Below are positions 21,785 through 25,063 of a stretch of DNA of 64,000 nucleotides, piece by piece; positions within the stretch are counted from its first letter, which is position 1, and the number at the start of each line of letters is the position of its first letter. Where the stretch lies: contig VGYC01000007.1 of assembly GCA_016873095.1 (NCBI GenBank), positions 1-64,000 of the forward strand, read 5' to 3'. The stretch is from Planctomycetota bacterium (GTDB taxonomy: Bacteria > Planctomycetota > Planctomycetia > Gemmatales > Gemmataceae). The position numbers were made by a program, and so were the translations under genes. A model generated the notes under the pieces. It was given only the letters and a program-made list of their open reading frames with translations, was not told where the DNA came from and did no database searches.

Positions 21785-24700
21785 ATGCATCGCGAGATTT
21801 CTCACAGCGACACGGCCTTCTCGACGGAACGAAACCTGTCCCTGTATCTGATGACCGGTTTCCTGGGCTTGCTCATTGCCCTCGACCTGCTGCCCAGGGC
21901 GGGAGGCTGGCTTGGCTTGCCGATGCCGGAGTGGTGGCCGTCCCGGTTCTACAACTTCGAGTTCGCGCTCATCGCCGCTGTCATCGGCGGCGCCCGCGTG
22001 TTGTACACGTCGCTGCAAGGCCTGATGGATGGGAAGATCGGCGCAGACCTGGCCCTCGCCGTCGCCTGTATCGCCGCCATCCTCATCCAGGAGCCGCTGG
22101 TCGCCGCCGAGATTGTGTTCATCGGCCTGGTCGGCGAATGTCTCGAAGGCTTCACCTTTGCGCGTACGCAGAGCGCCATCCGCAAGATCGTCGAGGTCAC
22201 GCCCAGGCGCTGCTGGGTGCTGCGCGACGGCCAGGAAGTCCGCGTGCTGACCAGCGAGTTGCAGGTCGGCGACCGTGTGGTCGTCAAGCCGGGCGGCAAG
22301 GTTCCGGTGGACGGAGTCGTCACCGATGGCCGATCGGCGGTGGACACGAGTGCACTCACTGGCGAATCGTTGCCCGCGGACAAGGGCCCCGGCGATGAGG
22401 TGCTGGCCGGCTCGCTCAATCAGTTCGGCGCACTGACAATCGAGGCGAAACGGGTCGCAGAGCATACGGTCGTCGGCCGGGTCATCGAGCTGACCGCGCG
22501 GGCTCTCAAGGACAAGGCCGCACTGGAGCGGACCGCCGACAGGCTGGCTCGGTACTTCCTGCCCGCGGTGCTGGGCATTGCCGTGGTGACCTTTCTGGGC
22601 GCGATGTTCTTTCACGGCACGTCGTGGTTCCGGGCAGCCGATGCGGCACGGCCGAGCTTCCGGCAAATCGTGACGCTGAGCGTGTATCCGACGCTGTCGG
22701 TGCTGGTCGTGGCCTGCCCGTGCGCGCTGATCCTGGCAACGCCGGCGGCCATCATCGCCGCTCTCGGCCGGCTGGCGGGGACCGGCGTCCTCATCAAGGG
22801 CGGCTCCGCGCTGGAACGGCTCGCGGCCGTCAGCGCCTTCGCCTTCGACAAGACCGGCACCCTCAGCGAGGGCCGCCTCGAGCTGGGCGCCGTCCGCGGC
22901 CTGGGTGCTACCAGCCCCGACGAACTGCTGCGCATCGCCGCCGGCGCCGAGCAGCGCAGCGAGCATCTCATCGCCAGGCTGATCGTGCAAGAGGCAGCCG
23001 CCCGCAATCTTGCGGTCGATCCGGTGGACGATTTCCAGGCGCATCCCGGCGCCGGCGTCACGGCACGCACGGCTGCCGGGCCGGTCGTCGTCGGCACGCG
23101 GCGGCTGGTGGAGGAGCAGGGCATCGCCGTGTCGGCCGAGGCTCTCGCGCTGCTTGAGGATTTCGACACGCGCGGGGAGACGGCGCTGCTGGTCGCGCAC
23201 GCAGGGCAGATTCTGGGCGCCATCGGCGCCCGCGACCGCGTGCGGCAGGATGCCGGCCCGGTCCTTGGGCAGCTTCGCGCTCTGGGCATCGATGAGCTGG
23301 TGTTGCTGACGGGTGATCGCGGCGCCGTGGCCCGCGCGTTCGCGGTGGATCTGCCGTTCACGCAGGTTCACGCCGAGTTGTTGCCGGATCAAAAGGCGGA
23401 CTTCATTGCGCGGCTGAAGGAGACGGACAGGGGCGCTCGCCACGTGGCCATGGTGGGCGACGGCATCAACGACGCGCCCGCGCTGGCCCGCGCCGACGTC
23501 GGCCTGGCCATCGGCGGCACCGGGACCGACGTGGCCGCCGAGGCCGGCGACGTCGTCTTCATGAGCGATCCGCTCAAGCCGTTGCCGTTGGTGCTACGGC
23601 TGTCGCGCGAGACGGTGCGCATCATCCGTCAGAACATCATCGTCTTCGCCTTCGGCGTCAACGCCGTCGGCATCCTGATCACGGCCTGGCTGTGGCCGGT
23701 GTTCGCGCCGGACGACTGGCAGCGGCATTCGCCGCTGGCGGCGGTCATTTACCATCAGCTCGGTTCGCTGCTGGTGCTGCTGAACTCGATGCGCTTGTTG
23801 TGGTTCGAGCGGTCGGCCACAAGCCCCACGCTCATCCGCACGCGCGCGACGCTGCGCCGGCTCGACGATTGGCTGGAGAGGTACCTCGATCTCGGCGAGG
23901 CCGTGCACTGGGTCGAGCATCGCTGGAAGCGCGTCACGCTAGCCGTGCTCGGCGTTGTGCTGGCGATCTACGCTGTCAGCGGACTGACAGTCATTCAGCC
24001 GGACGAGGTCGCCGTGGTCAAGCGCTTCGGCCGGCCGGTGGATGACCTGTCGCCCGGCTGGCACTGGCGCTGGCCCTGGCCCATCGAGAACACGGTGCGT
24101 GTGTCGCAGCGCTTGCGCACCGTCGAGATCGGCTTTCGTACCGTGCCGGGGAAAACGGCGGCGCGGGCGCTTTCATGGGCCAGTCCGCATGCGGAGGAAC
24201 TGCGTCGTCCGGGTGAGGCCGTTATGATCACCGGCGACGGCAATCTGGTGGAGATGCTTGCAGCCGTGCATTTCAAGGTAAAGGATCCATACGTGTTTCT
24301 CTTCGGGGTGCGCGATCCCGACGAGTTGATTCGTGCCGCCGCCGAGACAGCGTTGCGCGAGGTTGTTGTCAGCCGGCCCTTCTTCGGCCTGCTTACGGTC
24401 GATCGCGGCGCCTTTCAGAAGGAAGTGCTGGCCCGGATCGACAGGACCTGCAAGGCCTATGGCGCTGCCGGACTCGGCATCGAACTCGACAGCTTGACGT
24501 TGAAGGACTTGCATCCGCCGCCCGAAGTCGTGCCCGACTATTACCGGGTGACGCAGGCAATGGAAGGCCACGATCGCGCGATCAATGAGGCCCGGGCCAG
24601 GGCAATCATGACCGTCAGCGACGCGGAGGCCGACAGCACGCGGATCATCCGGCAGGCGACGGCCGCCAAGGAAGAGACGGTCAAGCAGGCCGAGGCCAGC

Positions 24701-25063
24701 CGCGATGTCTTCCTGCAGCACAGCGCTGTTCGCAAGGCGCTCGCCCCCGAGATCGAGCTGTCGCTCTACATGCAATCGGTGCAGGACATGCTCAAGGGTG
24801 GCAACGTCGCCGAAATCGAGGCACGCTATCAGAAGAAGAAGCAAGACCTGATCGTGCAGCAGGCGACATTGACGGATTTTCGGTTGTTCTGGGACATGCT
24901 GGCCCGTGCCCTCACCGGCCGGGACCTGGTGCTGATCGATGCGGACAAGGTCGCCGGCCGGCGAAGCCTGCTCCTGCTCGACCCCGATCAGCTGCGCGTA
25001 CCGGCCCCGATCATCATGGACCGCCGCCCGCCGGGCCGGCCGGCACATGAACTGGGACCGTGA
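21785..25063 (+). CDS. P1B-type metal ATPase fused to an SPFH/HflK-like domain
   Basis: A 1,092-residue fusion. Residues about 1-690 are a heavy-metal P-type ATPase: TGES at 192-195, the transmembrane CPC at 311-313, the phosphorylated DKTG at 355-358 and GDGIND at 558-563. It lacks an N-terminal CxxC metal-binding domain, and the usual nucleotide-site HP dipeptide reads HL (SEHLIA). The last ATPase helix contains YHQLGSLLVLLNS rather than the Cu(I)-type MxxSS. After a new membrane helix (about 712-733) residues about 735-1060 form an SPFH/Band 7 domain like HflK (VIQPDEVAVVKRFGRPV) with a helical tail. The frame is open throughout. It begins an apparent operon of SPFH and respiratory genes. 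The metal is not assignable. Confidence 0.9.
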   Translation: MHREISHSDTAFSTERNLSLYLMTGFLGLLIALDLLPRAGGWLGLPMPEWWPSRFYNFEFALIAAVIGGARVLYTSLQGLMDGKIGADLALAVACIAAILIQEPLVAAEIVFIGLVGECLEGFTFARTQSAIRKIVEVTPRRCWVLRDGQEVRVLTSELQVGDRVVVKPGGKVPVDGVVTDGRSAVDTSALTGESLPADKGPGDEVLAGSLNQFGALTIEAKRVAEHTVVGRVIELTARALKDKAALERTADRLARYFLPAVLGIAVVTFLGAMFFHGTSWFRAADAARPSFRQIVTLSVYPTLSVLVVACPCALILATPAAIIAALGRLAGTGVLIKGGSALERLAAVSAFAFDKTGTLSEGRLELGAVRGLGATSPDELLRIAAGAEQRSEHLIARLIVQEAAARNLAVDPVDDFQAHPGAGVTARTAAGPVVVGTRRLVEEQGIAVSAEALALLEDFDTRGETALLVAHAGQILGAIGARDRVRQDAGPVLGQLRALGIDELVLLTGDRGAVARAFAVDLPFTQVHAELLPDQKADFIARLKETDRGARHVAMVGDGINDAPALARADVGLAIGGTGTDVAAEAGDVVFMSDPLKPLPLVLRLSRETVRIIRQNIIVFAFGVNAVGILITAWLWPVFAPDDWQRHSPLAAVIYHQLGSLLVLLNSMRLLWFERSATSPTLIRTRATLRRLDDWLERYLDLGEAVHWVEHRWKRVTLAVLGVVLAIYAVSGLTVIQPDEVAVVKRFGRPVDDLSPGWHWRWPWPIENTVRVSQRLRTVEIGFRTVPGKTAARALSWASPHAEELRRPGEAVMITGDGNLVEMLAAVHFKVKDPYVFLFGVRDPDELIRAAAETALREVVVSRPFFGLLTVDRGAFQKEVLARIDRTCKAYGAAGLGIELDSLTLKDLHPPPEVVPDYYRVTQAMEGHDRAINEARARAIMTVSDAEADSTRIIRQATAAKEETVKQAEASRDVFLQHSAVRKALAPEIELSLYMQSVQDMLKGGNVAEIEARYQKKKQDLIVQQATLTDFRLFWDMLARALTGRDLVLIDADKVAGRRSLLLLDPDQLRVPAPIIMDRRPPGRPAHELGP

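Follow-up and report, generated by a model that had tools for sequence, protein, structure and literature searches.

Why should a metal pump carry an SPFH domain on its own polypeptide? The question is raised by a gene (gene 1) in the first 64,000 nucleotides of contig VGYC01000007.1 (assembly GCA_016873095.1, Planctomycetota bacterium), the whole of which we call the window. Gene 1 encodes a single chain in which a P1B heavy-metal ATPase is followed by an added membrane helix and then by an HflK-type SPFH domain. This fusion is conserved among Planctomycetota and recurs with genes for HflC-like and HflK-like SPFH proteins.

Most bacterial SPFH complexes still lack an agreed target, and a conserved natural fusion names a cargo: metal exporters. 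Among the papers listed by searches of an open-access library for SPFH, HflK or Band 7 proteins with metal transporters or planctomycetes, a scope that leaves most subscription papers outside, no title or abstract opening describes such a fusion. The word ATPase is absent from the text of a paper on prokaryotic SPFH evolution (PMC2636767).

Pump and SPFH domain on one chain

The frame of gene 1 runs from an ATG at 21785 to a stop at 25061-25063, with 1092 codons and zero internal stops. Pfam places E1-E2_ATPase at residues 138-331 (1.9e-52), Hydrolase at 350-571 (3.2e-22) and Band_7 at 736-940 (7e-25). The pump belongs to the P1B heavy-metal ATPases by TIGR01525 (ATPase-IB_hvy; 543 bits, cut-off 346) and by its TGES, CPx, DKTG and GDGxND motifs, and the tail belongs to the SPFH/Band 7 family by PF01145 (88.5 bits, cut-off 23.6). 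The added ninth helix (TM9) shows as a hydrophobic segment at residues 719-737 in a hydropathy scan. A first-pass annotation of the window had already read the four motifs (the second as CPC, the last as GDGIND), the added helix and the SPFH domain in one frame of this length, and the frame check, Pfam, NCBIfam and hydropathy bear it out.

A structure model of TM9 and the SPFH domain matches in Foldseek the HflK/HflC structures (7vhq, 9cz2, 9paw and 7wi3) and those of stomatin and prohibitin, the best being 7vhq at E 4.7e-16.

The fusion is common in its family. Of 61 family genomes, with the window's own counted in, 55 pass a threshold of E 1e-100 and 48 hold the gene 1 protein in an open frame of at least 1000 residues, including the single-contig genomes G001, G007, G031 and G042. 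The other 13 comprise six with no match at E 1e-100, five with fragments (G002, G017, G030, G045 and G057), G023 with the gene split in two and G044, which matches only another P1B ATPase. The first-pass annotation had said that homologues with the two parts always in separate genes would speak against it; the family and the wider class do not show this.

For the class we used a profile of the junction, that is, the last two pump helices, the linker, TM9 and the start of the SPFH domain. At a threshold of E 1e-18 it matches 174 of 397 genomes; counted from the match rows, these are 82 of 95 in the own family, 6 of 7 in the sister family and 86 in further families. The matches listed, down to E 7e-48, all cover the junction, with the end of the pump on one side and SPFH sequence on the other. 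The seven weakest genomes (4e-20 to 8e-19) may not hold ATPase fusions, and one of them, G265, has a CDF-like fusion. Three own-family genomes, each at least 94% complete (G008, G009 and G050), have no match.

An even phylum sample of 294 genomes gave 22 junction matches at E 1e-15, the own one included. G276 of the same class and G220 of another class (by Pfam on its protein) are ATPase fusions, and the remaining 19 matches begin at model position 86 or later, in the SPFH part. A close-relative scan of 84,980 species by short exact peptides, which possibly left out kin of the window, returned two fusions from Planctomycetota and, from an actinobacterium, one ATPase match near a contig end, with its fusion state out of view; beyond that scan, the surveys covered Planctomycetota.

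Recurring SPFH partners and other exporters on the same SPFH type

Gene 1 is encoded with an HflC, as the next gene (gene 2) scores above the HflC cut-off and is the sole such match in its assembly (95.5% complete). Gene 3, for a short HflK-like protein, scores 103 bits with TIGR01933, below the cut-off of that model. Of 42 ATPase-fusion loci, counting that of the window, 23 have an HflC-like and an HflK-like gene downstream of the fusion, and three more loci have one HflC-like gene only, one HflK-like gene only and a position near a contig end, respectively. A search for HflC in 13 chosen genomes gave a single strongly matching place per genome in all 13 (in two pieces in G031), and in the nine of them without HflC beside the fusion it lies elsewhere in the genome. 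At one locus without the downstream pair (L096, 5278-7517), HflC-like and HflK-like genes stand upstream of the fusion.

Past gene 3, at 27123-31580, genes for COX1, COX3, an unknown 269-residue protein, cytochrome c and a Rieske protein stand one after another; the nine frames scanned in this part include no COX2. None of these five occurs at the 42 other fusion loci, which are other records (41 distinct, as L092 repeats L039) with flanks mostly of about 8-10 kb per side. Since the oxidase genes are absent from the other loci and the SPFH genes are recurrent, the recurring unit is the SPFH trio of fusion, HflC-like and HflK-like genes, and the oxidase is a local neighbour. Of the two ties drawn in the first-pass annotation, the one to neighbouring SPFH partners thus holds and the one to oxidase subunits is not supported.

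The same SPFH type is joined in Planctomycetota to three unrelated metal exporter families: P1B ATPase, SO_0444 and CDF. Our survey of N-termini took chosen long frames from the best matches of two phylum searches, 136 rows that became 111 after removal of duplicates and of 8 frames without a membrane segment; 4 of the 111 are unassigned. Because the loci were chosen from best matches and long frames, the counts are not phylum frequencies. Four long frames that match SPFH have an N-terminus with 0-1 membrane segments and no class assigned to it (L191, 3017-4861; L173, 1131-2975; L192, 1348-3159; L186, 3180-5471); in GC-rich DNA, these may be open frames that merely read through.

All 10 N-termini of the SO_0444 group match the model of this Cu/Zn efflux permease, with 364.7 bits for L123 (cut-off 300) and 268 for L118, which is cut at a contig end. 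Pfam names CDF in L105 (3.8e-33) and L120 (3.7e-28); in a later count it matches 3 of the 55 N-termini of the CDF-like group, two of them these named ones. Both named CDFs have H(X)3D in each of two metal-site helices, and H(X)3D is usual for the second such helix of CDFs. The site described in PMC10800456 has H(X)3D in the first helix and, in the protein treated there, E(X)3D in the second. HflC-like and HflK-like genes lie downstream at 8 of 10 SO_0444 loci, at both CDF loci and at 40 of the 53 CDF-like loci. With three unrelated exporter families on the same SPFH kind, a functional tie is hard to dismiss.

The CDF-like group has polytopic N-termini, mostly of some 280 residues. An iterative model seeded from the two CDFs gathered 50 of these N-termini, and the group is named CDF-like only, as such a model can drift. 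In profile comparison, 16 of them against the two recognised CDFs gave a probability of 62 and E 7.4e-5, which is suggestive only, and a second subgroup of 7 gave 0.18 against the CDFs and 92.9 against the first subgroup. The domain could be a new kind of membrane domain, or a CDF that has diverged far. At L107, L109, L110, L112, L150 and others of the 53 loci it has the conserved end YRPR...DSRLL...DYQFGF...TWFY.

A tree built from 82 SPFH domains groups the fused ones largely by exporter. The 17 ATPase-fused domains, including that of G220 from another class, make up one branch (support 95/84, recovered in 94% of bootstrap trees), 9 of 10 SO_0444-fused domains another (100/99), and 16 of 20 CDF-like ones stand on a third (97/96). 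One clade of all transporter-fused domains (p of the approximately unbiased test, p-AU, 0.19) and one of ATPase plus CDF-like domains (p-AU 0.34) are both unrejected. The origin may therefore lie either in several separate fusions or in one fused ancestor with a swapped exporter.

Two short motifs mark some of these domains. The count covered 40 of the 42 ATPase rows and 52 of the 53 CDF-like rows, leaving out those with a score below 80, closer to HflC or shorter than 200 residues, duplicates and unclassified long frames. WxxxH is found in 38/40 ATPase-fused, 42/52 CDF-like, 0/10 SO_0444, 1/2 CDF and 1/65 short HflK-like domains, and HPP in 40/40, 46/52, 1/10, 1/2 and 0/65, respectively. This pattern would fit one fused ancestor with a swapped exporter for the ATPase and CDF-like groups, or a shared demand on both.

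The window's features are collected in Table 1. Two genes on the minus strand diverge from gene 1: one at 14538-20951 for a 2137-residue protein, by eye a Ser/Thr kinase with WD40-like repeats, and one at 21094-21786 for an extracytoplasmic function (ECF) sigma factor (PF07638).

Table 1. Positions in the window of the three-gene unit and of the motifs and domains of gene 1 (res, residues)
Feature	Position	Strand	Basis
Gene 1: P1B heavy-metal ATPase + HflK-type SPFH domain, 1092 aa	21785..25063	+	frame, Pfam, NCBIfam
TGES actuator motif, res 192-195	22358..22369	+	T192, G193, E194 invariant in 16 aligned rows
CPC metal-site motif, res 311-313	22715..22723	+	present in 32/32 aligned fusions
DKTG phosphorylation motif, res 355-358	22847..22858	+	invariant in 16 aligned rows
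GDGIND motif, res 558-563	23456..23473	+	G558, D559, G560, N562, D563 invariant in 16 rows
Last pump helix HQLGS(X)5N, res 657-667	23753..23785	+	H657, N667 in 32/32 aligned fusions
Added membrane helix (TM9) preceding SPFH domain, about res 715-737	23927..23995	+	hydropathy; part of helix 2-42 in SPFH model
SPFH / Band 7 domain, res 736-940	23990..24604	+	Pfam; fold match to HflK/HflC structures
WxxxH signature, res 798-802	24176..24190	+	motif count
HPP signature, res 910-912	24512..24520	+	motif count
Gene 2: HflC-like SPFH protein	25110..26135	+	TIGR01932 140 bits, above cut-off 134.4
Gene 3: short HflK-like SPFH protein, 4-base overlap with gene 2	26132..27067	+	Band_7 2.7e-16

A candidate pump-bearing assembly and its rivals

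What could such a chain do? It may both export metal as a P1B ATPase and take part, as a subunit of the HflK type, in an SPFH assembly resembling HflK/HflC, a reading that we consider evenly poised between right and wrong. The pump would span the inner membrane, and its ATP-driven domains would face the cytoplasm. P1B pumps have a cytoplasmic C-terminus, and HflK/C has a ring geometry. As the pump's C-terminus is cytoplasmic by homology, TM9 should cross the membrane and put the SPFH domain in the periplasm, like that of HflK. There it would co-assemble with the HflC of gene 2 and the plain HflK-like protein of gene 3, and the latter could act as a spacer between the bulky pump-bearing subunits. 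The function, and any benefit of fusion, might follow from this: the assembly would anchor, cluster and stabilise the pumps, and metal would exit under or beside the SPFH dome rather than into the free periplasm.

A wider form of the idea is possible, if doubtful. It is that of a general metal-export cage of Planctomycetota, an HflK/C-like assembly with an exchangeable exporter (P1B ATPase, CDF or SO_0444) as membrane floor fused to one HflK-type subunit. The exporter would have been swapped on one ancestral SPFH gene, and metal would be pumped into an enclosed periplasmic space.

Several points weigh against the pump-bearing assembly. At the loci, 16 of the 42 ATPase fusions have neither an HflC-like nor an HflK-like gene downstream. 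The SPFH part scores best with the NCBIfam hflK model TIGR01933 at 126.8 bits, below its cut-off of 159.4, so it is HflK-type and not a certified HflK. As for the exporters, 52 of the 55 N-termini of the CDF-like group have no Pfam CDF match (the next best after the three CDFs is at E 0.0024), so for many of the fused membrane domains a role in metal export is putative. The mycobacterial P1B pumps are described as sitting in membrane platforms organised by PacL, which do not require flotillin (PMC9374683, PMC13043812).

The topology and the models add to these points. The SPFH domain is placed on the periplasmic side by homology; the hydropathy scan picked out 6 of the 9 helices expected, and the charge of the linker is neutral (7 K/R, 7 D/E). 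The model of TM9 and SPFH domain, from 5 sequences, is moderate, with a mean predicted local distance difference test (pLDDT) score of 67 and a predicted TM-score (pTM) of 0.47, and its best fold match has a TM-score of 0.40 by query length and a root-mean-square deviation of 14.6. The full-length model, with 3 sequences, has a mean pLDDT of 38 and is unusable.

Which metal would be pumped is read from the models and the metal-site helices. The pump exceeds the NCBIfam Cd-type model TIGR01512 (406 bits, cut-off 313.5). It is not placed with the copper pumps of P1B-1, as it falls just below the Cu-type model TIGR01511 (382 bits, cut-off 397) and its last helix is of the HQxGS type. The P1B-1 copper pumps have CPC with NxxYN and MxxSS, and MxxSS stands where the P1B-4-like histidine sits here. 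The P1B-4 (Co/Zn/Cd) subgroup is described with SPC in TM4 and HEGGT(X)5N in TM6 (PMC10800456); in the fusion CPC replaces SPC, and HQLGS(X)5N retains the His and its spacing to the Asn. This combination of CPC with a P1B-4-like last helix leads us to assign no subgroup.

The site itself is well kept in the 32 aligned fusions, with C311, P312, C313, N626, H657, N667 and R670 invariant, residue 658 Q in 30 of them and E in the other 2, and residue 661 S in 31. With low certainty, we lean to Zn, Cd, Co or another divalent ion rather than to Cu. Two findings count against a divalent metal and thereby against the reading above: among solved structures CopA copper pumps come closest at 336 bits, followed by a cadmium-named P1B pump at 296 and a zinc pump at 273, and the fusion pump of G220 exceeds the Cu-type cut-off (427 bits). 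Copper specificity is thus disfavoured by the NCBIfam models and the last helix, but not by the solved pumps.

Might the SPFH domain serve quality control instead? As a tether, an HflK-type domain would bring the pump to FtsH or shield it from FtsH, proteolysis would set the pump's levels and there would be no metal chamber. FtsH in Escherichia coli is described as joining the HflK/C assembly via HflK (PMC13220708), and the window's own genome encodes two FtsH above cut-off. Neither of the two has a match in the window or at the 42 other fusion loci, so the role is without gene-order support, and it leaves the choice of several metal exporter families unexplained. We regard such a tether as unlikely.

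The WxxxH and HPP motifs raise the idea of a periplasmic metal sensor or acceptor, in which their histidines would bind the exported metal and gate the pump or hand the metal on. The motifs are near constant in the ATPase-fused domains and common in the CDF-like ones, against next to none in the short HflK-like proteins. They are also nearly missing from the SO_0444 fusions, and common ancestry could account for their sharing. The WxxxH loop has a pLDDT below 50 in the SPFH model, too low to place the histidines of the two motifs relative to each other. On balance, a sensor or acceptor appears rather improbable.

Copper delivery from the pump to the COX1 cytochrome oxidase encoded just downstream is suggested by gene order, with COX1 on the same strand 55 bases past gene 3, and by the copper pumps as the closest solved structures. 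Loss of HflKC is reported to impair aerobic respiration in E. coli, an effect tied in that account to IspG and not to metal delivery (PMC12005517). As the other fusion loci hold no oxidase gene, the Cu-type model is just missed and the last helix is not of the MxxSS type, delivery to the oxidase is very improbable. Finally, an artefact that joined two genes by chance, mis-assembly or frame error is ruled out, for practical purposes, because the fusion is conserved as a single long frame among the family genomes, several of them single-contig.

Comparison with known systems

The conserved fusion, its three-gene unit and the three exporter families suggest that Planctomycetota make metal export part of a large assembly in the membrane. 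The fusion offers a testable case for SPFH assemblies hosting transporters, as lately seen for stomatin, and it parallels the scaffolded pump platforms of mycobacteria.

The HflK/HflC complex, which is described as surrounding FtsH (PMC13220708), shares with our system the SPFH fold, the single helix ahead of the domain and the HflC and HflK-like partners in a gene cluster. The difference is that here one HflK-type subunit bears a whole metal pump N-terminally and misses the HflK equivalog cut-off. P1B ATPases of the CopA, ZntA and CoaT type share all the catalytic motifs, TIGR01525 and TIGR01512 are both exceeded and CopA is the closest of the pumps with solved structures, whereas the fusion adds TM9 and the SPFH tail. 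Its CPC with HQLGS(X)5N does not fit the copper MxxSS type. Nor does it fit the SPC/HEGGT pair of P1B-4 (PMC10800456).

Two scaffolded systems come near in arrangement. In the PacL/CtpC effluxosomes, a scaffold protein likewise is described as holding P1B pumps in membrane platforms (PMC9374683, PMC13043812), but PacL is a small separate protein, whereas here a true SPFH domain is on the pump's own chain. Stomatin forms complexes with aquaporin-1 and urea transporter-B in a preprint account (PMC12407830), in which an SPFH assembly encloses a membrane transporter as we propose for the pump. Those are separate proteins of human red cells, with no fusion and no metal transport in what that account describes, while in the Planctomycetota exporter and SPFH domain are one chain.

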